A stretch of 64,000 nucleotides of DNA from Xylophilus sp. GOD-11R. Its GTDB lineage: Bacteria; Pseudomonadota; Gammaproteobacteria; Burkholderiales; Burkholderiaceae_C. The notes below the pieces were generated by a model, which was not told the origin of the DNA, ran no database searches, and worked only from the letters and a program-made list of their open reading frames with translations. Positions 49,403 to 64,000 of the stretch are shown here, piece by piece (the stretch's first letter is position 1; every line of letters starts with the position of its first letter). The stretch spans positions 4,898,001 through 4,962,000 of the forward strand of contig NZ_CP137854.1 in the NCBI RefSeq assembly GCF_033546935.1, written 5' to 3'. The translations under genes were made by a program, and so were the position numbers.

Positions 49403-50581
49403 TCAGGGAAGCGCCCAGCGCTCCTGCCCGCGCGGCAGTTGCAGCACCCGCTCGGGCATTTCCCACACGATGAGTTTGGGCGGCGTCTGGCGGAAGGCGT
49501 CGCTGGCGAAGTAGGCCGAAGGCGAGCCCCAGAAATTGCCGCCGTCCTTGGCGAAGTTGCCGACCGGCGTCTGCAGCGCGGCGGCCAGGAACTCGGCGAA
49601 GTGCGAAGTGCGCGAGAAGGATGTGCCGATCAGGGCGACCTGCGGCAGATCGGCATCGCCGAAAAGCTCGGCTTCGGCCGAGGCAGCCGATGAAGCCGCC
49701 GCGACAGCCGCGTCGGGCTTGCGCAGCGTGAAGCTGCTGTCCGACGCTTCCTCGGGCACCGGCTGCAGCGACAGCGGCAGACCATCGAGCCCGGCCAGCC
49801 GCACCAGATCGCCCGGCCGGCGCGCCGGCATGCCGCGAACCACGTCCCAGTTCTGCTGAGGCGACAACTCCAGGCCCAGGCTGCGGGCCACGTCGGCCAC
49901 CGCGCGCGCGGCGGCGTCGGCGGCGTTCTCGGTCCAGTGGGTGTCGGTGCGCAGGAACGGGTCTTCGCCACGGTCCTGCAGGGTCTTCAGGGCCGGCGTG
50001 GTGTCGACCACCGGCACGCCGGCGGCGGCCAGGCGGCTGACGAAGCCGCGCAGCCGGCCTTCCAGCGCGAGCGAGCGGTCGAGCTCGCACAGGCGCTGCG
50101 TCTCGATGCGGCTCTTGTCCGGCACCACGGCCACCATCAGGCGGATGCCGCGCTGGCGCAGCGCGGCCTGGATCTCGACGACGGCACGCGCGCGGTCGCG
50201 CAGGTAGCGGTCGCCATCGACCTGCGGCGCCAATTCCTCGGCCAGGAACAGCCAGCCCGGGCAGCCTTCGCGCACCTGCGGCCCGAGGTCGCTGATGGCC
50301 AGCCAGCTCAGCTCGCGCTCGCGTTCGGCCGCCACCCGCGCGAAAGGCGCGTTGGCCAGGGCCTGCGCCATGTCGCGCATGCTCGCGCCGTCCAGAAAGG
50401 CGGCGCGGGTGAGCGCGTGCGGCAGCAGGTCGAGCCGCTGCGTGACGACGGCGGTGACGGTGGTGGCGAGCCCGCCGGCCAGGAAGGCCAGCAGCGCCGC
50501 GCCCGACCAGCGTGCTGCCAGGCTGCGGGCCTTGGGCGGCTCGATCGGTGGCGCGGCGTTGGCGGCGGACGGTGCGGTCAT
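49403..50581 (-). CDS. wssI: AlgX/AlgJ-like polysaccharide O-acetyltransferase (WssI type)
   Basis: A 392-residue periplasmic SGNH-fold acetyltransferase anchored by one N-terminal membrane helix (about 27-48). The catalytic Asp-His pair is in RTDTHWTEN (Asp213, His215) and the Ser in LIGTSFSRTS (Ser321), as in AlgX/AlgJ. It would accept acetyl groups passed by the MBOAT protein encoded just upstream (16 bases away) and put them on the exported glucan. It is the last gene of the cellulose operon, matching wssI of the Pseudomonas wss cluster. Confidence 0.87.
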   Translation of the reverse strand: MTAPSAANAAPPIEPPKARSLAARWSGAALLAFLAGGLATTVTAVVTQRLDLLPHALTRAAFLDGASMRDMAQALANAPFARVAAERERELSWLAISDLGPQVREGCPGWLFLAEELAPQVDGDRYLRDRARAVVEIQAALRQRGIRLMVAVVPDKSRIETQRLCELDRSLALEGRLRGFVSRLAAAGVPVVDTTPALKTLQDRGEDPFLRTDTHWTENAADAAARAVADVARSLGLELSPQQNWDVVRGMPARRPGDLVRLAGLDGLPLSLQPVPEEASDSSFTLRKPDAAVAAASSAASAEAELFGDADLPQVALIGTSFSRTSHFAEFLAAALQTPVGNFAKDGGNFWGSPSAYFASDAFRQTPPKLIVWEMPERVLQLPRGQERWALP

Positions 50582-50597: not shown

Positions 50598-52004
50598 TCA
50601 GAACTGGAAGTACAGGAAGGGCACCGCGCCCCGGCTGGCGATCAGCGCGAAGGACAACAGGAAAGCCGGCACCGGCCACAGGGCGCCGATGGCCGACAGG
50701 CGCGGTCCGGCCCGCGCGGCGATCTGCGGCGCCACCGCCGGCCAGACCACGCAGACGATGCCCAGCGCGAAGGCCAGCAGGTGCGCGCGCCGCAGGCCGG
50801 CGTCGAGCGCGTCGCCCACCTCGAAGCCGCCGTGCAGGCCGAACTGGCCGGCCAGCATGCGCAGGGCGCTGTCGAAATCGTGGGCGCGGAACAGCGTCCA
50901 GGCCAGCATCACGAACAGCAGCGTGGCGATGCGCGCCAGCGGCATCGCCAGGGTGCGGCCGCTGGCGCTGTAGGCCCGGGCACAGCACAGCGCCACGCCG
51001 TGGGCGATGCCCCAGAGCAGGTAGTTCCAGCTGTCGCCGCCGTGCCAGAGGCCTGCGATGGCCATGGTGAGCAGCAGGTTGACGTAGGTGCGCACGCTGC
51101 CCCGGCGGTTGCCGCCCAGCGGGATGTAGAGGTAGTCGCGAATCCAGCTCGACAGCGACAGGTGCCAGCGCCGCCAGAAGTCCTGGATGCTGCGCGCCAG
51201 GTAAGGATGGTTGAAGTTCTCGGGAAAGTGAAAGCCCAGCATCAGCGCGATGCCGATCGCCATGGCGCTGTAGCCGGCGAAGTCGAAGAACAGCTGCAGG
51301 GTGTAGGCCGCGCAGCCGATCCAGGCGTCGGCGAAGCCCGGCCGGGCCTGGGAGAAAGCCAGGTCGACGATGGGTGCCAGCGTGTCGGCGATCAGCACCT
51401 TCATGCTCATGCCCACCATGAAGCGCCGCGCGCCGGCGCCGAAGCCGTCCCAGCCGAAGCTGCGGTTGCCGATCTCCTTCTTCACCCAGTCGTAGCGGAT
51501 GATCGGCCCGGCGATCAGCTGGCCGAACATGGCCTTGTAGGCGGCGAAGGCGACGAAGCTGCGTTGCGCGGTGACCGTGCCCCGGAACACGTCGACCAGA
51601 TAGGAGATGGCCTGCAGCACGATGAACGACAGCCCGATCGGCAACGCGACCTTCTGCCAGGCGATCGGCATCGCGCCGGCATGGCCGAGCGCGGTGTTGA
51701 TCGTCTCGACCACGATGTTGGCGTACTTGAACCAGCCCAGCAGACCGGCCATGACGACGATCAGCACCGTGAGCTGAATGCGCCGCATTTGGGGCGCGGT
51801 GGTGGCGGCGATGGTCAGGCCGCCGCCCCAGGTAAGCGCGGTCAGGCCGACCAGCATCAGCAGGTAGGGCGGGCTCCACCAGCCGTAGAAGATCCAGCTG
51901 CCGGCCAGCAGGGTGCCGTTGCGCAGCGCTTTCGGCGTGATCGCGTAGGCGATCAGGAAAAGCGGGAAGAACAGCAGCAGGAACTCGAGCGAGGCAAAAA
52001 CCAT
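50598..52004 (-). CDS. wssH: Membrane-bound O-acyltransferase (AlgI/WssH type)
   Basis: A 468-residue MBOAT protein with around ten membrane segments. The signature RRWHLSLSSWIRDYLYIPLGG and the catalytic His321 in GLWHGGDSWNYLLWG are present. AlgI-type proteins carry acetyl groups across the inner membrane for polymer acetylation. It is the translocation step for the WssI-like transferase that follows. A 183-base gap and an unknown AT-rich gene separate it from the AlgF-like gene, where the canonical order would have them adjacent. Confidence 0.92.
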   Translation of the reverse strand: MVFASLEFLLLFFPLFLIAYAITPKALRNGTLLAGSWIFYGWWSPPYLLMLVGLTALTWGGGLTIAATTAPQMRRIQLTVLIVVMAGLLGWFKYANIVVETINTALGHAGAMPIAWQKVALPIGLSFIVLQAISYLVDVFRGTVTAQRSFVAFAAYKAMFGQLIAGPIIRYDWVKKEIGNRSFGWDGFGAGARRFMVGMSMKVLIADTLAPIVDLAFSQARPGFADAWIGCAAYTLQLFFDFAGYSAMAIGIALMLGFHFPENFNHPYLARSIQDFWRRWHLSLSSWIRDYLYIPLGGNRRGSVRTYVNLLLTMAIAGLWHGGDSWNYLLWGIAHGVALCCARAYSASGRTLAMPLARIATLLFVMLAWTLFRAHDFDSALRMLAGQFGLHGGFEVGDALDAGLRRAHLLAFALGIVCVVWPAVAPQIAARAGPRLSAIGALWPVPAFLLSFALIASRGAVPFLYFQF

Positions 52005-52756: not shown

Positions 52757-53419
52757 TCAACGGGCGATGGCGTCGGCGGCGAAGATGAGCTTGGATGCAC
52801 CAGCGCCAGCAGGCACCAGCAGCAGGCTGTAGCGTTGGCCGGCCTGCAGCGTGCCGAGGTCGACGGAGGCGCCGCGCGGCTGGCCGTCGCAGGTGGGTTG
52901 CACCGACAGCGCCACCGGGTTGACCATGCGGCGCTGTACCGTCTTCTCGGCCACGCCGCTGAAGATGCCGACGCCCTTGCCTGCGGTTTGCAGCCCGGCG
53001 GCCTTGCAGCCGGCGTCGTAGTTGTAGAAGGCGATCGCCGACTTGAGCGCGTTGAAGTCGTCCGGCGATTCGGCGATGACCGCGGTGCGCAGGCCCTTGC
53101 CGTCGGCGGTGGGCAGCGCGACCACGGTAGCGAAGGCGCCGGGCGCGGTCTTGACGCTGACCGGGGCCTTCTGGCCGCCGCCCTCGAAGGCGCCACCGAT
53201 GTTGGTGTCGGGCTTGACCGACAGGTATTCGGACACCGGCTTGTCGGCCGGCAATGGCAACCGGGCCTGGCCGGAGACCACTTCGAGCCGCTGTGGCGCG
53301 GCATTGACGAAACGCACGAAGGCCGAGTCCTGCGACGGTCCGGTGTCGTAGAGCTTGGGCGCGGCCTGGGCCGTGGCGCAGGCCGCGGCGGCCAGCGCGA
53401 GCAAAGCGAAACGCTTCAT
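52757..53419 (-). CDS. wssG: AlgF-like periplasmic acetylation protein (WssG type)
   Basis: A 220-residue secreted protein (signal peptide to about residue 21, ACATAQA). The mature start KLYDTGPSQDSAFVRFVNA matches the AlgF pattern LY...P..SAFVR..NA, and two beta-domains follow (VSVKTAPGAFATVVAL, ALSVQPTCDGQPRG). AlgF helps pass acetyl groups between AlgI/J-type proteins during alginate acetylation; here the target would be cellulose. The ATG overlaps the stop of the SGNH gene (ATGA). Confidence 0.8.
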   Translation of the reverse strand: MKRFALLALAAAACATAQAAPKLYDTGPSQDSAFVRFVNAAPQRLEVVSGQARLPLPADKPVSEYLSVKPDTNIGGAFEGGGQKAPVSVKTAPGAFATVVALPTADGKGLRTAVIAESPDDFNALKSAIAFYNYDAGCKAAGLQTAGKGVGIFSGVAEKTVQRRMVNPVALSVQPTCDGQPRGASVDLGTLQAGQRYSLLLVPAGAGASKLIFAADAIAR

Positions 53420-54069
53420 TTCTTCTTGGCCACGGCGGGCGATTCGGCGATGGCGTTGGCGATGGCCGAGCCCCACTGCTTGTAGCCGGTGTTGGTGAAA
53501 TGCTGGCCGTCGATGGTGCGCCACTGGCCGGGCTTGGAGAAGGCCAGCGAATCCACATAGCTGCACGGCGCCACGTTGGAGGCGAGGAACTCGGAGGCCG
53601 TCTTCACCTTGTCGAAGGTCTTGCCGTACTGGCCGCCTTCGCTGCCCCAGGCCGGGCCGACCCAGACGCAGGCGGTGCCGGTGGAGGAGATGTCCTTGGT
53701 CAGCGCCGAGACCTGGCTGTAGGCCCAGGCCTTGGGATAGGTGGACTGCTTGTAGCCGCCCATGGTGTCGCCCATGACGACGACGACCAGGTCGGGCTTG
53801 TCGGTGGCGATGAGCTGCTTGACCGGCTTGGTGGCGGCAGCCGAGCCGACGAAGGTGATGGGGCCGTTGCCCGTGCGTTCGGCACCGCCGCAGTCGCTCT
53901 GCTTGGTGGTGGTCCAGTCGCCGGCGACCGAGCCGCAGACGCCGATGGTGTGCACCTTGGCGCCGGCCTGCACCAGCGGGTCCTGCAGGGTGTCGATGAG
54001 GTAGCCGCCATTGGCGAGGTGGCTGTCTCCGATGATGAGGATGGTGAGTCCGGCCAGGGTGGCGAGCAT
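53416..54069 (-). CDS. SGNH-hydrolase-type protein in the WssF position
   Basis: A 217-residue protein with an N-terminal hydrophobic segment that runs into the catalytic block I, ILIIGDSHLANGGYLID (Ser16). VVVMGDTMGG is block III-like and DGQHFTNTGYKQWG supplies the Asp-His pair. It lies between the BcsC-TPR gene (21-base gap) and the AlgF-like gene (4-base overlap), the place of wssF in the Pseudomonas wss operon, and has a similar length. The likely role is acyl transfer or removal on cellulose in the periplasm. The short N-terminus looks uncleaved, so it may be membrane-tethered. Confidence 0.75.
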   Translation of the reverse strand: MLATLAGLTILIIGDSHLANGGYLIDTLQDPLVQAGAKVHTIGVCGSVAGDWTTTKQSDCGGAERTGNGPITFVGSAAATKPVKQLIATDKPDLVVVVMGDTMGGYKQSTYPKAWAYSQVSALTKDISSTGTACVWVGPAWGSEGGQYGKTFDKVKTASEFLASNVAPCSYVDSLAFSKPGQWRTIDGQHFTNTGYKQWGSAIANAIAESPAVAKKK

Positions 54070-54090: not shown

Positions 54091-56847
54091 CTACCGGGCG
54101 GCGGCCGAAGGCGCGGGCGCGGTCCGGGTCCGTGCCGGTATTTCGGCTGATCCTACCGAAGCTGTAGGGCGGGCAAAAGGATTGTCGGCAGAGACAAAGC
54201 CGGGGGTCGGGTCTTGGCCACGCACCGCGCCGGCCGGCGCGGCCTGCGGCGCCAGCGACGGGTTGCGGGCGACCACGGCGGCCTCGGCGCGGCGCAGGTA
54301 GGCGACGGCCTGGCCCTTGCGGCCCTGGGCACGGTAGAGCCGGCCGCGGGTGGCCAGCACGTCGGGGTTCTGCGGTGCCAGCGCCTCGGCCTGGTCGATG
54401 CGCTGGTCGGCCTCGCGGAAATCGCGTTCGGCCACCGCCAGGCCGGCCGAAGCCAGCAGCGTGTTCACGTCGTTGGGTTCGCGCGAGAGCATTTCGCGGT
54501 AGATGCGCTGTGCCTGGCGCGGCTGGCCGGCGTCGGCGTACATGCGCGCCAGCAGGCCGAGCAGGGCCGGGTCCTGCGGGGTGTCGGCCAGCAGCGGGCG
54601 CAGCAGTTCGTAGCCGGCGGCGAGCTGGCCCTGCTTGCGCAGCGCCTCGGCCTGGCGCACCACATAGGCGCGGCGCAGGGTTTCCACGCGGCGCTGATCG
54701 TCGCTGTCGAGCTGGCCGGCCTGGATGCGGCCTTGCATCTGGCGCAGCAGGGTGGCCAGGCCGGCGTCGTCCTCGGCGGCGAGCAGCACGTCGCCGTAGC
54801 GCAACTGCAGCGCGGTGGTGGAAGCCTGCGCGGCGGGGTTGCGGGCGGTGCGCTCGATGGCGCCGCCGAGCAGCGCACGGGCACGGTCGAGCTCGCCCAG
54901 GTCGACATAGGTCTGCGCCACGATGGCCAGCAGCTCGGCGTCGTCGCCCACGCGGGCGGCCGACTGCGCCAGCAGCGCGTTGGCCTCGGGCAGGCGGCCG
55001 TCGCGGGCCAGCGCCAGGGCCTGGTCGGCCTGCACATGCAGCGCGGCGCTGCGCTGCAGGCTGCCCATGGCGGGCGTGCGCTGGGCCGGGGGAATCTTGT
55101 CCATCAGCTCCAGGATCGCGGGCCAGTCCTTCACCTCGGCCAGGAACAGGCCGTTGGTGTAGATGACCTCGGGGTCGGCCGGCTTGCGCTCCAGCAGCGA
55201 CTGCATCAGGTTGCGCGCGCCGGTGCGGGCACCGTTGCGGTTGTCCAGGCGGGCGAGCTCCAGGCGCATCCAGGGGTTGTCGGGCGACAGGTTCACCGCC
55301 TGCTGCAGCTTCTCGCGCGCGCTGCCGTCCTCGCCCCGCGCGAGCATGGCGCGGCCTTCGCCGTAGGCCTGTTCGGCGCGCAGCTGGTCGATGTCGATGC
55401 GCGAGCGTTGCTGCGGCGTGAGGCCTTCGATGAAGGCCAGCGCCTCGGTGGTGCGGCCGGTGGACGACAGCGTGCCGACCAGGCCCTTGAGCGCGTCCGG
55501 ATCGTCCGGGAAGCGGCTGAGCACATGGCGGAAGGTGCGCTCGGCGTCGACATAACGCTTCTGGTCGGTGTAGACGGCGGCCAGCGTGTTCTCGGCGGTG
55601 GTGTCGTCGCTTTCGGGATCGACCGCCATCGCCTGCTGCAGACGGCGCGCGGCCTCGTCGTAGCGGCCTGCCGTGCGGGCGGTGCCGGCCTGCTGAACCA
55701 GCTCCCAGTAGGTGGCCGAGTCGAGCGCCTGTTTCCACTGCTGCGGGCCGTCGATGCGTTCGGCCTGACGCAGGTAGTCGCGCGCTTCGCCCCAGCGCTG
55801 CTGCTTCACCCGCACCAGTCCGAGCCCGCCGAGCGGCCCGCCAGCCGCCGGGCGCAGCCGGTGGGCTTCGGCGAAAGCGGCTTCCGCCTCGGCGACTTTG
55901 TTGTTCTGCAAGGCCGCGAAGCCGTCGGCCATGCGCATCGACACCGGGTCGAGCTTGCGTGGCGCATTGGCGGCGGCCGCGGCCGCGCCGCCACGCGACG
56001 GGCCGGCCACGCCCTGGCCGGGCAGCTTGGGGCCGCGTCCGGCGAGCTGGTCGCGGATCTCGGTGTCGTCCGGATTGGCCGCGAGGTATTCGCGGAACAG
56101 GCCGGTGTAGGCGGCCGGCGGTGGCGAGCCCAGCCAGCCCATGGCGCCACGCCACTGTTCGGTGGCCTCGCCGCCGATGTCGCCGCGTTTGGACAGGTTG
56201 GCCAGCGAGCGCATCGCGTCGAGCCGGGTCGACGGGCTCTGCAAGCGCAGGCTCGCCACGGTGAGCGCGATGCGGGAGTCGCCGGGATAGTTCTTCTGCA
56301 GCCGCTGCAGGCCGGCCAGGGCTTCGTCACGACCGCCGTTGGTGTAGCCCAGCACCGAGTAGTACTCGACACCGATGCGGCCCAGCGGCTGGCGGCCCTT
56401 GAAGAGGGACTTGTACTTCTGCACCGCGTCGTCGAAACGCTTCTCGCGCACCAGGATGCGGGCCTGGTCCAGGTCGGCCTTGCCGGTATTGGAGGCCAGC
56501 TCCAGGTCCTGCTCCAGCTCCTTGAGCTCCTGGCTGTCGGGGTGCGCGCGGCGCAGTTGCTCGGCGTAGCGGCGGGCGTCGGCGGGCTTCTTGGCGTCCA
56601 GCGCCAGGCTGCCCAGGCGCGACAGCGCCTCGGCGTTGCCGGGGTCGGCGGCCAGCAGCTTGGTCCAGGCCTCGGTGGCGCGTTCAGGCTGGCGGGCCTG
56701 CCAGTAGCGGCCCTGCTGCAGCAGGGTGTCGATGACGGTCTGCGACTGCGCGGGCGCCGGCGCGGCCTGGGCGAGGGCGAAGCCCTGCGCGGACAGGAGC
56801 AGCAGGCCGCAAGCGACGGCGATCAATGAACGGGTGTGGCTCGGCAT
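54091..56847 (-). CDS. bcsC: BcsC-like TPR protein without the outer-membrane barrel
   Basis: A 918-residue periplasmic protein. A signal peptide (to about residue 27, FALAQ) is followed by TPR repeats throughout (for example LLAADPGNAEALSRLG near 64-79, then further 34-residue repeats up to about 860). This matches the N-terminal scaffold of BcsC, the cellulose export protein, but the C-terminal BcsC beta-barrel domain is absent; the tail is low-complexity (ARTRTAPAPSAAAR). The missing barrel is encoded separately at 58239-60191. Residues about 190-270 are homologous to part of that protein. It overlaps bcsZ by 25 bases. Confidence 0.85.
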   Translation of the reverse strand: MPSHTRSLIAVACGLLLLSAQGFALAQAAPAPAQSQTVIDTLLQQGRYWQARQPERATEAWTKLLAADPGNAEALSRLGSLALDAKKPADARRYAEQLRRAHPDSQELKELEQDLELASNTGKADLDQARILVREKRFDDAVQKYKSLFKGRQPLGRIGVEYYSVLGYTNGGRDEALAGLQRLQKNYPGDSRIALTVASLRLQSPSTRLDAMRSLANLSKRGDIGGEATEQWRGAMGWLGSPPPAAYTGLFREYLAANPDDTEIRDQLAGRGPKLPGQGVAGPSRGGAAAAAANAPRKLDPVSMRMADGFAALQNNKVAEAEAAFAEAHRLRPAAGGPLGGLGLVRVKQQRWGEARDYLRQAERIDGPQQWKQALDSATYWELVQQAGTARTAGRYDEAARRLQQAMAVDPESDDTTAENTLAAVYTDQKRYVDAERTFRHVLSRFPDDPDALKGLVGTLSSTGRTTEALAFIEGLTPQQRSRIDIDQLRAEQAYGEGRAMLARGEDGSAREKLQQAVNLSPDNPWMRLELARLDNRNGARTGARNLMQSLLERKPADPEVIYTNGLFLAEVKDWPAILELMDKIPPAQRTPAMGSLQRSAALHVQADQALALARDGRLPEANALLAQSAARVGDDAELLAIVAQTYVDLGELDRARALLGGAIERTARNPAAQASTTALQLRYGDVLLAAEDDAGLATLLRQMQGRIQAGQLDSDDQRRVETLRRAYVVRQAEALRKQGQLAAGYELLRPLLADTPQDPALLGLLARMYADAGQPRQAQRIYREMLSREPNDVNTLLASAGLAVAERDFREADQRIDQAEALAPQNPDVLATRGRLYRAQGRKGQAVAYLRRAEAAVVARNPSLAPQAAPAGAVRGQDPTPGFVSADNPFARPTASVGSAEIPARTRTAPAPSAAAR

Positions 56848-58010
56848 GGCGATGTCCAGGCCGGCGCGAGGGCGCCGGATCGGGTGAATTGGTAGCGTCC
56901 GTCCAGCCAGCCCTGGCCGAAAAGGGTGAGCACGAGGTCGTAATAAGGTGGCTGGCGCTGCTGCACGGCCTGCGGCGACAGCGCCTGCTGCAGCCCGTCG
57001 GCCACCCGCTGGCGCTGGCGCGCGAGCGCCGCCGGCGCGTTGGCGGAGGCCAGCAGCGGCAGCATCGCCGCGGAAAAACCGAAGGATCCGGTGCCGCGCA
57101 TCGCGCCGGTCGACACGGTGACCGACTCCGGCGGCTGGCCGGCGGCGACCGTGGCGCGCACCTGGCCGGCCAGCGCGGTGCGCAGCGGCTGGGCCAGCGA
57201 GTCGGAGGGCGGGGTGACGCCGGCCCAGAGATAGGTGCGGATCGCGTCGTAGCTGCCAACGTCCTGCTTCTCCGGATGCGGCCCGAAGGCGCCCTTGCCC
57301 GTGGCGTCCAGCGTGAAGGCGGTCCAGTCCGGCGCGAAGCCGCTCGGCGCGGTCACGTCCTGGAAGATGGTTTCGGTGTTGCGCGCGATCGCGCCCCACG
57401 GTCCCACGGGCGACGCCGACACCAGCCGGCGCAGCACCGGCGGCGGCTGGTAGCTGGGGTTGAAATACCAGCGTTCGGGGTTGTGGTGGACGAAGCCGAA
57501 TTCGCCGGGCATGAGCATCGGCCCGAGCCCGGGCACCGCGACCACTTCGCGTTTCTCGATCTCGGCCAGCAGCAGGCGCGCGTCGCGCTCGTAGGCCGGC
57601 TGCTTCCACAGCCGTGCCGCTTCGAGCAGCGCGTAGGTGAACCACAGGTCCGCGTCCGACGCCGAATTGCCATCGAGCACCCGCCAGGAGTTGTCCGGCG
57701 CGAGGCCCCACCACCAGGCCGGCAGGCGCCCTTGCACCTGCCCGCCCATGAGGTTGTCCACGCTCCAGCGCCACAGCGCGTCGAAGCGCGGCCGATCGTT
57801 GGCCACCAGCGCGAAGAACATGCCGTACGACTGCCCTTCGGACGAGCTGTGTTTCTGCGGCGTGCTCGCGTCGATCACCCGCCCGTCGGCCTGCACGAAG
57901 TGCGTCACGAACGCATCCCACAGCGGCCAGCGCGCATCGCACCCCGGCGCGCCCCAGGCAGGCGCCACGGCCGCCGCCGACAACAGCGTGAGACAGTCGC
58001 GCCGCATCAT
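56823..58010 (-). CDS. bcsZ: Periplasmic endoglucanase BcsZ (GH8)
   Basis: A 395-residue glycoside hydrolase family 8 cellulase with a signal peptide (cleaved after PAWG, about residue 20). The general acid is Glu58 in SSSEGQSYGMFFAL, and the second catalytic region is NSASDADLWFTYALLE (Asp119/Asp121). It trims or untangles the nascent glucan during export. It lies between the two BcsC pieces, in the order barrel, bcsZ, TPR. Two Met codons in a row offer starts at 58010 or 58007. Confidence 0.93.
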   Translation of the reverse strand: MMRRDCLTLLSAAAVAPAWGAPGCDARWPLWDAFVTHFVQADGRVIDASTPQKHSSSEGQSYGMFFALVANDRPRFDALWRWSVDNLMGGQVQGRLPAWWWGLAPDNSWRVLDGNSASDADLWFTYALLEAARLWKQPAYERDARLLLAEIEKREVVAVPGLGPMLMPGEFGFVHHNPERWYFNPSYQPPPVLRRLVSASPVGPWGAIARNTETIFQDVTAPSGFAPDWTAFTLDATGKGAFGPHPEKQDVGSYDAIRTYLWAGVTPPSDSLAQPLRTALAGQVRATVAAGQPPESVTVSTGAMRGTGSFGFSAAMLPLLASANAPAALARQRQRVADGLQQALSPQAVQQRQPPYYDLVLTLFGQGWLDGRYQFTRSGALAPAWTSPCRATPVH

Positions 58011-58238
58011 GCAACCCGATCCCCCAACAAGCAGCCAGCACTCCCCAAGCGGAGACCGTGCGCAGCACGCCGACTGTTGGTGAGGCGTGGCAGCGAGGCT
58101 ATGCCGAGCCAGCCCGCCGCCCCCGGAGAGGGGGTAGGCGAAGACACGAAGTGCGTAGTCTGGGGGCGAGCCCATCTCTCCGCCCCCGGTGAGGGGGTAG
58201 GCGAAGACACGAAGTGCGCAGCCTGGGGGAGAGCCAAT
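58011..58238. repeat. Tandem dimer of the GC-rich intergenic repeat inside the cellulose operon
   Basis: Two units, at about 58117-58173 and 58180-58234, share CCGCCCCCGG-GAGGGGGTAGGCGAAGACACGAAGTGCG and end in CTGGGGG(C/A)GAG. They belong to the same family as the dimer at 18449-18595 (both have the CCCCCGG/AGGGGG hairpin, an ACACG/GTG element and the GCCTGGGGGCGAG end), though less similar than the two units within a locus. They lie between the BcsC-barrel stop and the bcsZ start. The remaining bases of the gap show nothing else. Confidence 0.7.
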
Positions 58239-60191
58239 CTAGCCTCCATACGGGCTGCGAATCCAGTTGACCGGCATGACCTGCGGTCCCTCGTGCGGCC
58301 GGAACGCATAGCGCACATACAGGCTGCCCAGGTACTGGCGATAGTCGCGCGAGTTGTCCAGGCCCAGCCGGCCGCCGACGAACCATTGCGGCTCCAGCTG
58401 GTACTCCAGCGCGGCCGCGAGGCTGTAGCCGATGCCCGTCTTGCTCTGGCCGCCGTAGCTGGTGCCGGCAGCGGCCTGCGCGGCGGCGTCGTTCGGGAAG
58501 TACGGCGTGCCGTCTTCACGCACGTGCTGCACGCCCAGCGATCCCTTGACCTGGTAGGACATGCGGCCGGTGCGCTGCTGCCAGTCCACCGGCACGCCGA
58601 TCGACAGGAACTGCTGCGGGCTGAAGTAGCCGCCCTGGCCGAGGGTGTAGTAGCCGAGGTTCTTGTCGTAGTTCAGGCCGGTGGCGGCCAGGCCGGCGGT
58701 GAACTTGGTGTCCTGCTCGTTGATCAGGCGAAAGAAGATGCCCGCGCCGTATTCGGCCCGGGTGTTGGTTTCCACGCCATGGCCGAGCAAGCGCGCCACA
58801 CCGCCGTAGGCATAGAGGCCGTAGCCGCCGCGGTCGTAGTTGGCGTCGAGCCGCGCGCCGTTGGAAGACACGCCGCCCCACTCCTGGCCGGTGCGCGCGT
58901 CGCGTGCGCCGGCGAAGGACAGCACGCTGTCGGTCACCGCGCGGCGCTGCAGGTTCATGGTGAAGCTGAATTCCTCGCTCACCGGCATGCGGTAGCGCAC
59001 GCCGCCGTTCACGTCGGTATAGCGAAAGCCGATCGGCGTGGTGCCGATGTCGACCGCCAGGTTGCCCTGCTCGTAGCCCACGCCCACACCCAGGCCCTGC
59101 TGGTTCTGGCCGCCGGCCGAGGCGCCCGGCTGCGCGGTGGCCACGACCGGGCCGCCGCCGAAGCGGCTGATGCTGTTGAAGGCGGTGTCGATGCGGCCGG
59201 TGCCCAGGAACACCGGGGTGACGTGGCCGGTGAGGGTGCCGTCGCCCATGTCCATGCGCAGCTGGATCGGCACTTCGGTATCGGTCAGCCGGCTCATGCC
59301 ACGCTCGCCCTGGCGGGAGCGCACGACCACACCGGCGCTGACCTCCGGGCGGCCGCGCTGGCTTTCGATGTCGGCGATCTCGCGCTGGAGGTTGCGCAAC
59401 TGCAGCTCGTCCGGGCTTTCGGGCGCACGGGCGACCACAGGGGGCGCGGCGTAGTTGGCGGACGAGGCGGCTGGCGTCGTGGTCGAGGCCACACCGTCGA
59501 AACGCGGGGCCGTGCGCGGCGGCATCGCCGGCACCACGACTTCCTCGCGCGTCGACAGGCTGCTGCGCACGCCGACCGGCGCCGGCACGACCGGCGCGGG
59601 GATGGCGGGCGACGCGACGGCGGCGGCACCACCGCCTGCGGGCGGCAGCACGACCGGCGGCATGTAGGCAGGCGTGCCGGTCAGCACGGGTGCCGGCGCG
59701 GCCGTGCGGCCGACCGGCGCGGATGCGGGCGACGACGCCGTCCCGCGCTGGATCTCGGCCAGCCGTGCGCGCACGGCGGTGTCCTTGGGCCGCACCTTCA
59801 GGTAGGCCTGGTAGAGCGGAATGTCGTCACGGCCGGTGCCGGCGAAGCCGAGCGCGGCGCGCCAGCTGCCGATGGCTTCTGCGCCGACGGTGCGGTCGCG
59901 CGCGAGCTGCGACAGCTGCACGATGCCGCTGCGCAGCGTGTCCGGCTGCGAGGCCAGCAGCTGCGCCAGGGCCAGCCGCGCGGCCATGTCGCCGGGCTGT
60001 TCGAGCACGCGCTGTTCCAGCTCGCGCCGGGTGTCGGCCGGGCTCTGGGTGGGGTCGGCCGCGAGCGGCACTTCCAGCGGTGCGGGGGCGGGCGCCGGCG
60101 CGCGGCCGCGCTTGGTGGCGGCCTGCGCCGGCATCGTCTGCAGGGCGCCGAGAAGGCACAGGACGAGGGTGCGGCTACGGGATGGATGCAT
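58239..60191 (-). CDS. BcsC C-terminal outer-membrane barrel as a separate protein
   Basis: A 650-residue protein. A signal peptide (to about 24) is followed by a short TPR-like segment (about 55-147), a Pro/Ala/Val-rich linker (about 150-265), and then the BcsC C-terminal domain: LQREIADIESQRGRPEVSAG, SRLTDTEVPIQLRMDMG, and barrel strands including GYFSPQQFLSIGVPVDWQQR and YLGSLYVRYAFRP at the end. It should form the outer-membrane cellulose channel. Normally this domain is the end of BcsC. The short TPR part (about 68-146) resembles residues about 190-270 of the separate TPR protein. It follows bcsB after a 114-base gap. Confidence 0.88.
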   Translation of the reverse strand: MHPSRSRTLVLCLLGALQTMPAQAATKRGRAPAPAPAPLEVPLAADPTQSPADTRRELEQRVLEQPGDMAARLALAQLLASQPDTLRSGIVQLSQLARDRTVGAEAIGSWRAALGFAGTGRDDIPLYQAYLKVRPKDTAVRARLAEIQRGTASSPASAPVGRTAAPAPVLTGTPAYMPPVVLPPAGGGAAAVASPAIPAPVVPAPVGVRSSLSTREEVVVPAMPPRTAPRFDGVASTTTPAASSANYAAPPVVARAPESPDELQLRNLQREIADIESQRGRPEVSAGVVVRSRQGERGMSRLTDTEVPIQLRMDMGDGTLTGHVTPVFLGTGRIDTAFNSISRFGGGPVVATAQPGASAGGQNQQGLGVGVGYEQGNLAVDIGTTPIGFRYTDVNGGVRYRMPVSEEFSFTMNLQRRAVTDSVLSFAGARDARTGQEWGGVSSNGARLDANYDRGGYGLYAYGGVARLLGHGVETNTRAEYGAGIFFRLINEQDTKFTAGLAATGLNYDKNLGYYTLGQGGYFSPQQFLSIGVPVDWQQRTGRMSYQVKGSLGVQHVREDGTPYFPNDAAAQAAAGTSYGGQSKTGIGYSLAAALEYQLEPQWFVGGRLGLDNSRDYRQYLGSLYVRYAFRPHEGPQVMPVNWIRSPYGG

Positions 60192-60231
60192 GGGCTGCTC
60201 GCAGGGTCTCGCGCAAAACGCCGGATGGAAC

Positions 60232-60290
60232 TGCCCCGGCCGACGCGGCCGGGGCACGGAAATCCCGCCGCCGGGGCGGCACGCGGCGGG
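60232..60290 (-). other. Two strong stem-loops between bcsB and the barrel gene
   Basis: TGCCCCGGCCG-ACG-CGGCCGGGGCA (60232-60256) is a perfect 11-base stem with a 3-base loop. Next to it CCCGCCGC (60264-60271) pairs with GCGGCGGG (60283-60290) across 11 bases. Neither is followed by a T-run on the minus strand, so they are probably mRNA-stabilising, processing or attenuating structures rather than full terminators, allowing different levels of BcsAB and of the downstream proteins. Confidence 0.6.
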
Positions 60291-60305
60291 GTTCGGTCTT
60301 CGGCG

Positions 60306-62708
60306 TCACACCACCAGGCGGCTGCGGGCGCGGGCGCGCAGCACCACGTAGATCACGATCGCCAGCAGGGCCGCGCTCGCCAGGCCCAGGATCACCAGCA
60401 GGATCGGGTGGCTCGACAGGAAGTACTGCACCGCGGTCAGCAGGCCGAGGCGACCGACGTGGTAGGTCTGCTCGGCCACCAGGCTGGAGACCTGGTCGCC
60501 ACGCACCACCGACACGCTGCCCTGGATGTTCTTCACCCGGTCGAGGTCGAGCAGGGCGTCGATCGTGTTGCCCAGGCTCTCGGGCTTGTCGGTGGAGATC
60601 AGCACCACGCTGCGGCCGCTGGCCAGCGGCGATTCGAAGCCGGAGATCACGCCCTGGGCGCCGTCGCTGGTGAATTTCTCCTCCTGCTTGCGGTCTTCGG
60701 GGGTGACGCGGTGGTGACGATCCCACCAGTCGAGGAAGCGGCCGCGCAGGTCCGACAGCGGGAAGCTGCGGGCGGCGGGCGTGATCGCCGACGGAATGTT
60801 GGCGGCCCACTTCTGCACCAGCGGCTGGTTGGTGCCGGAAGAGAAGACCAGCAGGTCCTTGTCCTTGACGTTGTCGACCGCGGCCGCGCGGATGACGGTG
60901 ACGCCGGTCGATGGATAGCCGGCCGAGCGGCCCATCAGGCCCATGGCGTCGAGGTAGGCACCCAGGTCGGCGCCGCCGGCGTTGTCGGGCAGCACCACGG
61001 CCGTCTCGGAGAGGTCGGCCATGCGGGTGAACGGGAAGCCGGCATTGCCGAAGGCGGCCAGGTCGGGCATCGGCAGGTAGTGCGAGAAGCCGGAGATGTC
61101 GATCGTCGAGTCGGCGTCGATGGCGCCCTTGACGTTGTCGAGCATCACGTCCTTGCAGAACCCTTGCTTGATGTAGTCGTAGTAGTAGTGGAACTGCAAC
61201 TGCGACTGCGCCGGCAGCATGAACATCGGCACGCGCACGTGCTCGCGGGCCATGACGGTGCCGTCCTCGGTGGAGGGCAGCAGCGCGCTGAGGGCGGCCG
61301 GCACGCCGCGCTCGACCGCCAGCAGCGGGTAGGAGCGCAGGAACTGCTCGTTGACGTTGATGTTGAGCGAGGACTTGTCGGTCGTCGGGCGCGGCGTGTA
61401 GCGGTAGCGCAGGTCGATCGGAATGCCCTTCTCGCGCCAGCCGAACAGGTCGGGCGGCACGCGGAAGTTGACGCGGACCAGGTCGGGCTCGTAGCCGGAG
61501 ACGTTCAGGCCGCGCTGGTCGGCGATCTCGCCGAAGCGCACCGGGCGGTCGCTGCGCAGCCACGCTGGCGCGTCGTAGGGCTTGCGCGCCACGACTTCCT
61601 TGAGCGGCTGCACGCTGGCCACGCGGCCCGACAGCGTGGTGCCGCCGACGGCCAGCACGTTGGCCGCGACCTTGATGTCGGCCGCATTGCGGCCCATCAC
61701 CACCAGCAGCTTGGAGACCGGGTCGTTGGGGTTGGTGACCATGGCCACGGCCGGACCGGTCGGCACCGGCAGCTCGACGCCGGGAATGCCGGTGTTGCCG
61801 GTCATGAAGACCACCGCGGCGCCCTTGGCCGGGATGGTGTCGTTGGACGCCGGGAACTTGGCGCCGCGGTAGCCCGCCAGCGAGCCGAACCACGAGGCGA
61901 CGGCGCCGGCGCCCTCGAGCGTGGCCTGCTCGGCGTTGCCGACAAAGACGAAGGGCAGTTTCAGGCCGCGCACGTCGCGGCGGTCGAAGAAGGGTGCCGG
62001 CAGCAGGTTCAGGTCGTCGGGCAGGGCGATCGGCGCGACGGTGAGCTCGAGCTCGCTCTGGTTGGCGATGCTGGCCCACAGGCTGGTGTGCACCGGGTCC
62101 TCGCAGTCGAGGGTGTAGTGTCCGATCAGCTCGATGTCCAGGCGGTTGAAGTCGGTGATCATCCGCACCGGGATGTTGACTTCGGTCTGCAGGTCGGTGC
62201 CGGCCTGCTCGCGCGGCACGGCGATGCTCTGCGCGACTTCCTGGTTCACCCGCACGTTGATGTGCGAGATGTTGGCCAGCAGGGCGGGCGAGTACGCGTA
62301 CTTCAGCTTGAGCTTGGCCGAGGTGACGACCTCGTCGGCACGCACGCTGAAGGGCACGCCGCCGGAGCCCTGCACGCCGCGCAGCTGCAGCGGGAAGGTG
62401 GCGCCGAGCTGGCGCAGCGAGACCGAGTAGGTGCGCGTCGGGCCGGGAGGCGCGGGCGGGTTGACGGTGGGCCGGCCGACCACGCCGGCGGGCGAGGTCG
62501 AGATGCCGGACGACGATGCGGCGCCCTGGGTGCCGGCCGCGGTGCTGCTGCTGGTCTCGGTCGCCTTGTCGGCCTTGCGGGCTCGCGTGGTGGCGGCGTC
62601 GGCTGGCAGAAGCACCGTGGTGCCGAGTGCCAGCGCGATTGCCGCAGGAAGTACGCCCCGGGCCAGAGCCCGGTGCATGCGCGGCGTTGTTGCTGCTGTC
62701 GGAACCAT
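60306..62708 (-). CDS. bcsB: Cellulose synthase periplasmic subunit BcsB
   Basis: An 800-residue BcsB. A signal peptide and a Ser/Thr/Ala-rich stretch (to about 90) precede the carbohydrate-binding and flavodoxin-like domains, with LGATFPLQLRGVQGSGGVPFSVRADEVV and IELIGHYTLDCEDPVHTSLW as family markers. A C-terminal membrane anchor (about 765-790) binds BcsA. BcsB guides the glucan through the periplasm. The ATG at 62708 shares its first base with the last base of the bcsA stop (TGATG); a TTG directly before it is a weaker alternative. Confidence 0.95.
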   Translation of the reverse strand: MVPTAATTPRMHRALARGVLPAAIALALGTTVLLPADAATTRARKADKATETSSSTAAGTQGAASSSGISTSPAGVVGRPTVNPPAPPGPTRTYSVSLRQLGATFPLQLRGVQGSGGVPFSVRADEVVTSAKLKLKYAYSPALLANISHINVRVNQEVAQSIAVPREQAGTDLQTEVNIPVRMITDFNRLDIELIGHYTLDCEDPVHTSLWASIANQSELELTVAPIALPDDLNLLPAPFFDRRDVRGLKLPFVFVGNAEQATLEGAGAVASWFGSLAGYRGAKFPASNDTIPAKGAAVVFMTGNTGIPGVELPVPTGPAVAMVTNPNDPVSKLLVVMGRNAADIKVAANVLAVGGTTLSGRVASVQPLKEVVARKPYDAPAWLRSDRPVRFGEIADQRGLNVSGYEPDLVRVNFRVPPDLFGWREKGIPIDLRYRYTPRPTTDKSSLNINVNEQFLRSYPLLAVERGVPAALSALLPSTEDGTVMAREHVRVPMFMLPAQSQLQFHYYYDYIKQGFCKDVMLDNVKGAIDADSTIDISGFSHYLPMPDLAAFGNAGFPFTRMADLSETAVVLPDNAGGADLGAYLDAMGLMGRSAGYPSTGVTVIRAAAVDNVKDKDLLVFSSGTNQPLVQKWAANIPSAITPAARSFPLSDLRGRFLDWWDRHHRVTPEDRKQEEKFTSDGAQGVISGFESPLASGRSVVLISTDKPESLGNTIDALLDLDRVKNIQGSVSVVRGDQVSSLVAEQTYHVGRLGLLTAVQYFLSSHPILLVILGLASAALLAIVIYVVLRARARSRLVV

Positions 62709-64000
62709 CAATCCCCCGTCTTCAAAGTTGGGCCTGTCCGCCGCGTCATGCGGGGAATGCGCAGCATGCGCCAGGCGTTGATAAAAAAGATGCCGAAACC
62801 GCGTGCGCCGATGCGCAGCACGCCACCCAGCGCCTTGAGCGGCGTGTCACGCTCGCCCCGGCCCCAGTTCTGTGCCCAGAGATCGGCGCGCGCGAAAGTC
62901 ATCTGCGCCAGCGCGACCTGCTGGATGGTGGTGAGTTCCTCGAAGTGCACGCCGAGCTTGTTGCCCCGGCGGAACACCACCTCGGCCGGGAACGAGGCTT
63001 CGTCCTGGTCGCGGTAGATGGACACGTAGAGCCGCTCGCCCAGGGGGATGTCGAGCTCGGAGGTGAGCGCCAGGCCCAGGCCGGTCTGCGAGAAGTCTTC
63101 CGTGCGGCAGGCTATGACGCGGCCGTCGGCCAGCGAGATGGACGCCCGCAGCGAGGCGATCACCCGCGGCGTCTTGCGCACCTGGCGGCTCTCGGAGGCC
63201 ACCGCGATGGCCGCGCTGAGCATGATGATGTTGTAGGTGGTCCAGATCAGGTTGATCGCCAGCGTGGTGTATTGCTCGCGGGCGAAATCGCCGACGACCA
63301 CCCGCCACACGCCCAGCCCGATGCCGATCAGGCTCAGCAACACGAGGATCACGTAGGGCCGGGCGATGTTCCAGTCGAAGTAGGAACGGTCGACGATGCC
63401 GCCCTTGGCGGTGACGTTGAACTTGCCCAGGCGCGGGTTGATGAAGGCGGTGATGGTCGGCCGCAGGATGTACCAGGCCAGCACCGACTCGTAGACCTCG
63501 TTCCAGAACGAATGCCGGAAGCGGCCCTGCATGCGCGAGTTGGTGATGCCGGCGTGCAGCAGGTGGGGCAGGGCGAAGGCGGCGATCATCAGCGCGGTGG
63601 CCTGGAACACCTGCGCACCGAAGAACAGGTAGGCCAGCGGCGCGGTCATGAAGATCAGCCGCGGCGCGCCGTAGAAGAAGTGCAGCATCGCGTTGAGGTA
63701 GCACAGGCGCTGGCCGAGCTTCAGGCCGCGCCCGAGCAGCGGGTTGTCGATGCGGCAGATCTGCGCCATGCCGCGCGCCCAGCGGATGCGCTGGCCGACG
63801 TGGCCGGCGAGCGATTCGGTGGCCAGGCCCGCGGCCTGCGGAATCGCCAGGTAGGCAGTGTTCCAGCCGAGGCGGTTGAGCTTGAGCGCCGTGTGCGCGT
63901 CCTCGGTCACGGTCTCCACCGCCATGCCGCCGATGGCCATCAGCGGTTCACGACGGATCAGCGCGCAGGAGCCGCAGAAGAAGGTGGCGTTCCAGAGGTC
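62708..64000 (-). CDS. bcsA: Cellulose synthase catalytic subunit BcsA, C-terminal part (cut by window edge)
   Basis: 431 codons of BcsA are visible; the N-terminus lies beyond 64000. The first readable part is NATFFCGSCALIRREPL, followed by the TED of the catalytic site (VTEDAHTAL) and the processive glycosyltransferase signature QRIRWARGMAQ. Several membrane helices come next, then the PilZ domain starting RVIASLRASISLADGRVIACRTEDFSQTG in blocks, which binds c-di-GMP and relieves autoinhibition. The first Arg-rich part of the PilZ motif reads RQVRKTPRV. It is the first visible gene of the operon and overlaps bcsB by one base. Confidence 0.96.
   Translation of the reverse strand, partial: DLWNATFFCGSCALIRREPLMAIGGMAVETVTEDAHTALKLNRLGWNTAYLAIPQAAGLATESLAGHVGQRIRWARGMAQICRIDNPLLGRGLKLGQRLCYLNAMLHFFYGAPRLIFMTAPLAYLFFGAQVFQATALMIAAFALPHLLHAGITNSRMQGRFRHSFWNEVYESVLAWYILRPTITAFINPRLGKFNVTAKGGIVDRSYFDWNIARPYVILVLLSLIGIGLGVWRVVVGDFAREQYTTLAINLIWTTYNIIMLSAAIAVASESRQVRKTPRVIASLRASISLADGRVIACRTEDFSQTGLGLALTSELDIPLGERLYVSIYRDQDEASFPAEVVFRRGNKLGVHFEELTTIQQVALAQMTFARADLWAQNWGRGERDTPLKALGGVLRIGARGFGIFFINAWRMLRIPRMTRRTGPTLKTGD

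Follow-up and report, generated by a model that had tools for sequence, protein, structure and literature searches.

How could a bacterium export cellulose when its exporter, BcsC, is divided between two genes? The question is raised by a 64,000-nucleotide stretch of the genome of Xylophilus sp. GOD-11R (contig NZ_CP137854.1, positions 4,898,001 to 4,962,000; hereafter the window). Here a gene for an outer-membrane barrel comes first, the endoglucanase gene bcsZ follows, and a gene for a tetratricopeptide repeat (TPR) scaffold comes last (Table 1). An earlier note, made from the sequence alone, had described this arrangement and had the coordinates, strand (minus), and frames of both genes right. 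The best explanation, to which we give a probability of about 0.62, is that the two genes encode a functioning BcsC of two subunits within an operon for acetylated cellulose, the pair having come from two bcsC lineages by complementary loss.

Domains and structure of the two proteins

The barrel is confined to one protein, as the note had proposed. The barrel protein matches PF05420 (residues 300-630, E 6.3e-110), which is its only Pfam match at E <= 0.01. At the same threshold, the 918-aa TPR protein has 22 matches, mostly to TPR and other helical-repeat families, and none to PF05420. A full TPR scaffold and a barrel on a single chain, as in a fused BcsC, were not found, there being two genes with bcsZ between them, and both proteins score well short of the 858 bits required by the NCBIfam equivalog NF008520 (TPR protein 227.6, barrel protein 252.6).

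Compared with full-length BcsC, the barrel protein consists of a signal, a piece corresponding to about residues 180-275, a linker (the tether), and the barrel. The remaining TPRs are absent, including the N-terminal ones, which the TPR protein retains. The retained piece, which we call the N-module, contains the segment that the note had seen in both proteins: when the two are compared as a single pair by BLASTP, residues 66-145 of the barrel protein align with residues 188-269 of the TPR protein, at an identity of 33% and with E 2e-6. None of the contrary outcomes that the note had named beforehand (PF05420 swapped or absent, no alignment) occurred.

The structure predictions that the note had suggested gave an N-module of six helices, with a predicted local distance difference test score (pLDDT) of about 90, and a tether with pLDDT under 50 (residues 153-257). 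The TPR-protein model is all-helical (mean pLDDT 82); a structure search with it returned general TPR-type folds, and E. coli BcsC was not among the best 50 listed. Both proteins had also been credited with their own signal peptides. Both start codons are kept in near relatives and are followed by a hydrophobic stretch that is signal-like by inspection.

Conservation of the split

The order bcsB-barrel-bcsZ-TPR was read in the window and in four more genomes (L053, L069, L071, L080), so a survey of related bcs operons, also proposed in the note, recovers the same split. We considered a frameshift or assembly artefact and regard it as unlikely, because five genomes share the order and relatives conserve both proteins.

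Protein searches, which scored only the candidates with the most shared words (in one case the best 120 of 248 matches), found at least 27 barrel proteins (P0002-P0028, the window's own included) and at least 36 TPR-only proteins without a barrel (P0001, P0041-P0075). The source names of these homologues point to Xylophilus. The N-module is present in 26 of the 27 barrel proteins, and the one without it, P0015, is just 405 aa long. Besides the window's own pair, 14 barrel/TPR pairs agree exactly in the length of the longest contig of their source (e.g., 609841 and 23749), which is suggestive of linkage but no proof of it. The 14 include the four read directly; the ten further contigs probably carry both genes. 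At one of these lengths (10298), two TPR proteins compete for the same barrel partner.

Across 26 proteins, mean pairwise identity is 0.61 in the N-module and 0.64 in the barrel, with 0.20 in the tether. The ratio of nonsynonymous to synonymous substitution rates (dN/dS) against L080 is about 0.11 for the N-module, 0.34 for the barrel part, 0.35 for the TPR gene, and 0.67 for the tether. Conservation in relatives, together with dN below dS, makes it likely that the two-part exporter, one of the two possibilities the note had raised, works.

Two lineage signals in the split genes

We label as Comamonadaceae-type a group of BcsC named from its sources (e.g., Acidovorax, Diaphorobacter, Curvibacter). 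The wss-type group is named from a first quick tree, which grouped L095 and L113, two loci with homologues of wssF, wssG, wssH, and wssI (F-I) beside bcsC. That tree was built without P0029-P0039, 10 of the 12 rows P0063-P0074, five of every six rows from P0100 on, L031, and the short matches; it placed 30 of 31 split-labelled rows in one clade (P0040 was wrongly labelled split).

The two genes fall in different groups. In the barrel tree, 15 split rows join 10 Comamonadaceae-type rows (support 100/99), and a forced grouping of split with wss-type rows is rejected by the approximately unbiased (AU) test (p-AU 0.001 and 0.0003). In the TPR tree, split rows join wss-type rows (support 100/97), and a forced grouping with Comamonadaceae rows is rejected (p-AU 0.0003 and 0.0008). 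Of the pairings within the 15-row sets, two (P0023/P0063 and P0027/P0075) are not linked by contig. The wss group includes Achromobacter insuavis (P0100), whose WssI has been studied (PMC10302187). Both placements stand in robustness trees with nine added rows, one of which, P0103, turned out not to be wss-type; the split+wss+ext test is void in both of these trees.

Profiles of the shared segment divide in the same way: all 19 Comamonadaceae-type BcsC prefer the barrel-gene profile (means 112 vs 77 bits), and all 9 wss-type BcsC prefer the TPR-gene profile (means 112 vs 69 bits). The five split bcsZ group with two wss-type bcsZ (support 98/97, or 90/95 when rerun without two long rows; L093 and L115 were left out of the reruns of the bcsZ, bcsA, and bcsB trees). 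By tree placement and segment scores, then, the barrel gene and TPR-protein residues 31-270, to which the lineage signal is limited, come from different BcsC lineages.

How the split may have arisen

Some relatives have the order bcsA-B-C with no bcsZ match between (e.g., L051, L052, L068, L070), and the order in the wss operon is A-B-Z-C-F-G-H-I (L113). We propose that a Comamonadaceae-type bcsC and a wss-type block were brought into one operon. The block would have brought in bcsZ and bcsC (its 5' third at the least), followed by the acetylation genes, and joining A-B-C to Z-C-F-G-H-I would have given A-B-C-Z-C-F-G-H-I. Loss of all but about two TPRs from the first bcsC copy, and of the barrel from the second, would then have produced the observed operon. 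We infer this order of events; no intermediate operon with two unsplit bcsC genes was found among the loci read.

The note had suggested duplication of a full bcsC followed by reciprocal loss. The complementary losses fit, but the two copies look as if they came from different lineages and not from duplication of a single gene. Tandem duplication of one bcsC, or of bcsZ-bcsC, remains compatible with the gene order (a Z-C tandem minus one Z), with the homologous TPR segment retained by both genes, and with TPR residues 330-855, which could share a lineage. We nevertheless consider it unlikely, because the trees and segment scores put the barrel gene and TPR residues 31-270 in different lineages, and fast evolution after duplication would need to mimic two separate ones.

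Proposed function and docking

In E. coli, BcsC binds to BcsB through its first TPR, its TPRs are thought to act as a guide for cellulose, and a flexible link connects its periplasmic part to the barrel (PMC11379886). The N-terminal TPRs are kept in the TPR protein and absent from the barrel protein, so it is the TPR protein that should dock on BcsB. In our proposed mechanism, the first TPRs, which dock on BcsB, have most likely been kept in this periplasmic protein, which would carry the chain across the periplasm, while the barrel protein would be the outer-membrane pore. The link between the halves is most likely the N-module, which sits on a tether of about 110 residues and would bind either the TPR protein or some other periplasmic subunit. 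Of the candidates for a dock it is the best, being conserved like the barrel and carried on a tether that is not conserved. Docking through the segment common to both proteins, as the note had imagined it, is plausible.

Inspection for a lipobox found no cysteine in the first 40 residues of five of seven split TPR proteins; P0001 has Cys13, within the hydrophobic core, and P0051 has Cys18. Showing no clear lipobox on this inspection, the TPR protein, unlike the alginate lipoprotein AlgK, probably needs a partner at the outer membrane.

The two proteins might instead have separate roles, with the barrel exporting cellulose and the TPR protein serving another step (e.g., holding the acetylation enzymes) without binding the barrel. 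The TPR gene immediately precedes the acetylation genes, and AlgK offers an analogy in that it binds AlgX (PMC9734138). This division is improbable in our judgement: in wss-type operons with a fused BcsC (L095, L113), a single chain does both, and the barrel alone would be without the first TPRs, by which E. coli BcsC is tethered to BcsB (PMC11379886).

We tentatively suggest operon fusion by xenologous complementation. In this reading, bcsC genes of two lineages, once in the same operon, each gave up the half that the other kept and so became obligate partners, and what was left of the pore's own former scaffold, a flexibly tethered TPR mini-solenoid, was recruited as the dock that couples pore and scaffold.

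How BcsC hands cellulose over from scaffold to pore is unclear, partly because both are one flexible chain. With separate genes, either of the two can be removed or purified without the other and the two can be mixed at will, and the conserved TPR piece that the pore has kept marks a candidate contact. The whole looks like a molecular machine built from halves of two ancestries.

Points against a two-lineage, two-subunit exporter

Several observations weigh against the explanation we favour. Some concern function: we infer function, partner binding, and cellulose export from sequence. Against the more distant L069, dN/dS is about 0.54 for the N-module, 0.45 for the barrel, and 0.55 for the tether, so the N-module value is not under the barrel's and hardly under the tether's. 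A loose rule gives six candidate positions for newly fixed residues in the N-module; under a strict rule there is no enrichment (3/95 vs 5/360; Fisher p 0.19 for conserved positions and 0.37 for all positions). The TPR protein has 18 new residues among 201 conserved positions, with no clear cluster.

Others concern ancestry. Among 16 full-length BcsC that fall in neither group, 12 also prefer the barrel-gene profile, at lower scores (means over the 16, 84 and 66 bits). Segment trees do not decide between the lineages for TPR residues 330-600 and 601-855, and mean windowed similarity from residue 271 (271-870) leans Comamonadaceae, so the TPR gene could be a mosaic. In four of the five split loci, bcsA and bcsB fit neither lineage clearly. 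Those of L071, a Xylophilus metagenome-assembled genome, are Comamonadaceae-type, unlike the other four, so the split operon appears to have gone through more than one round of reshuffling. A single origin of the split barrels is unevenly supported in three trees (58, 96/91, and 92/77), the tree giving 58 having been built without P0029-P0040, five of every six rows from P0100 on, five loci, and the short matches. Finally, the p-values are optimistic because the wss group was named after the first quick tree.

Distribution of split and broken bcsC

PF05420 was surveyed in 399 genomes of the family, 7 of the genus, 369 of the class, 399 of the order, and 398 of the phylum (the sets overlap), and was present in 43, 5, 18, 37, and 49 of them, respectively. 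We read the loci of all 43 family genomes (the window's own included), 20 from the genus, class, and order sets, and 16 from the phylum set. Many of the latter two groups were picked for short frames, and the remaining genomes were judged by frame length alone. A scan of genome contigs gave one locus. Loci that stop at contig edges (e.g., L037, L056, L086, L094) were not judgeable. Of the five genus genomes with PF05420, four carry the split and the fifth, G232, a bcsC with a broken frame.

A second type of split occurs in G081 and G185, two genomes of one genus in the same family (L043:9535-13847, L044:9512-13848). Here a TPR-only gene (about 835 aa) comes directly before a barrel gene (about 605 aa); the stop of the one overlaps the start of the other, and the barrel gene has its own signal-like start. 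Because the order is Z-TPR-barrel and the tree places this barrel far from the first split group, the split is most likely an independent event, and this family seems to have seen two or more fissions of bcsC. TPR queries at the loci read found no separate TPR gene beyond these two types, though a divergent one could escape them where BcsC is short (about 750-950 aa), since Pfam recognizes few TPRs, or none, in several of these proteins.

Other irregular loci were seen. L064, L066, and L046 look like single frame breaks in a full-length bcsC; in L046:6165-12127 (G232), the frame-shifted gene is accompanied by WssF/G-like genes that lie on the other strand. Three loci, L088:3671-6520, L105:213-2765, and L109:7960-10602, have divergent BcsC frames (851-950 aa) in which the first 500-630 residues are without a match to any Pfam TPR family at E <= 0.001.

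That the window's operon is breaking up, leaving two functionless remnants, is very unlikely: bcsC is frequently disrupted in Komagataeibacter (PMC6528568), G232 is broken, and two of the seven genus genomes are without PF05420, but here the frames are intact, dN is below dS for both genes, and relatives of the barrel protein retain N-module and barrel down to 43% overall identity.

The operon

The operon runs on the minus strand in the order bcsR-Q-A-B-barrel-bcsZ-TPR-wssF/G/H/I-like, with bcsQ and bcsR upstream of bcsA, past the window edge (the N-terminal part of bcsA was read separately in L116). The genome has one locus with a PF05420 match and one BcsB locus. The gaps are short (bcsB-barrel 114 nt, barrel-bcsZ 63 nt, TPR-F 21 nt) and bcsZ overlaps the TPR gene by 25 nt, so the genes are likely on a single transcript.

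Table 1. Features of the cellulose operon, in window coordinates
Feature	Position	Strand	Basis and remarks
bcsA, cellulose synthase catalytic subunit	62708..64000	-	C-terminal part, 5' end outside window; NCBIfam NF008558 and Pfam PilZ
bcsB	60306..62711	-	PF03170, E 1.3e-221; sole BcsB match of genome
Split BcsC, barrel gene, 650 aa	58239..60191	-	
N-module (retained TPR piece), barrel-protein residues 52-146	59754..60038	-	Homology to about residues 180-300 of full-length BcsC; predicted helices
Pro/Ala-rich tether, barrel-protein residues 147-266	59394..59753	-	Low identity, low pLDDT
Outer-membrane barrel domain, residues 300-630	58302..59294	-	PF05420
bcsZ, GH8 endoglucanase, wss-type lineage	56823..58175	-	PF01270; NF008305 above cut-off; tree
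Split BcsC, TPR scaffold gene, 918 aa	54091..56847	-	TPR families, no PF05420; all-helical model
TPR-gene segment homologous to N-module, residues 188-270	56038..56286	-	BLASTP E 2e-6; the TPR-gene profile of this segment scores highest with wss-type BcsC
WssF-like gene	53416..54069	-	Weak DUF459 match below cut-off; same-place homologues in four other split loci; named by position
WssG/AlgF-like gene	52757..53566	-	PF11182, E 6e-8, slightly below cut-off; start uncertain, probably nearer 53400
WssH-like MBOAT acyltransferase	50598..52004	-	PF03062, E 1.4e-26
WssI/AlgX-like acetyltransferase	49403..50581	-	PF16822, E 2.7e-77

The gene content is that of a wss-type operon, with cellulose genes and homologues of F, G, H, and I, of which F and G were assigned from weak Pfam matches and from where they lie. 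F-I are present at all five split loci. Among the 77 other loci read, some of which end early at contig ends, all four are found at three (L047, L095, L113), two at L046, and one at L107. The five split loci are a single group by descent, so this co-occurrence is not independent evidence.

Two side observations concern these genes. The wss-type acetylation cluster at L095:7234-9407 has a WssG-like gene flanked by two WssF-like genes. Antisense to bcsB, the barrel gene, and bcsZ, a 2063-aa open frame spans window positions 56826-63017 (+); it is probably a by-product of GC-rich codons.

Comparison with known systems

Divided exporters of this kind have been described. The pelB gene of aquatic thermophilic species, which encodes a TPR-barrel exporter in another synthase-dependent system, has undergone fission (PMC7112194), though Pel is not cellulose and the portion of that paper available to us mentions neither two lineages nor a retained segment. 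In Komagataeibacter hansenii ATCC 23769 and JCM 7643, bcsCI is in two pieces (PMC6528568), with no interleaved bcsZ or lineage conflict mentioned in the available part of the text. We found no report of an interleaved split bcsC in the literature searched, a scope that takes in few subscription journals.

Alginate export likewise uses a separate TPR scaffold and porin, AlgK and AlgE, alongside AlgF, AlgI/MBOAT, and AlgX homologues (PMC9734138). Here, however, the pore belongs to PF05420, with no AlgE-family match at E <= 0.01, and bears its own TPR piece; the solenoid is long, and its protein shows no clear lipobox on inspection. The wss operon for acetylated cellulose (PMC10302187) shares BcsQ, A, B, Z, and the wssFGHI homologues, and the TPR gene sits in its wssE slot, but the bcsA-B-Z-C order with a full-length wssE is not present, and the barrel gene lies between bcsB and bcsZ. 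Fused BcsC/WssE (PDB 9b8a, 6tzk) has the same barrel family, TPR solenoid, and operon partners (bcsRQABZ), whereas the window has two chains, a reversed order around bcsZ, two lineage signals, and a TPR piece on the pore.

A split BcsC has precedents; the interest of this one lies in its double ancestry and in the conserved TPR piece that the pore has retained. Judged by its sequence and its relatives, this is a real, conserved, and probably functional variant of BcsC.
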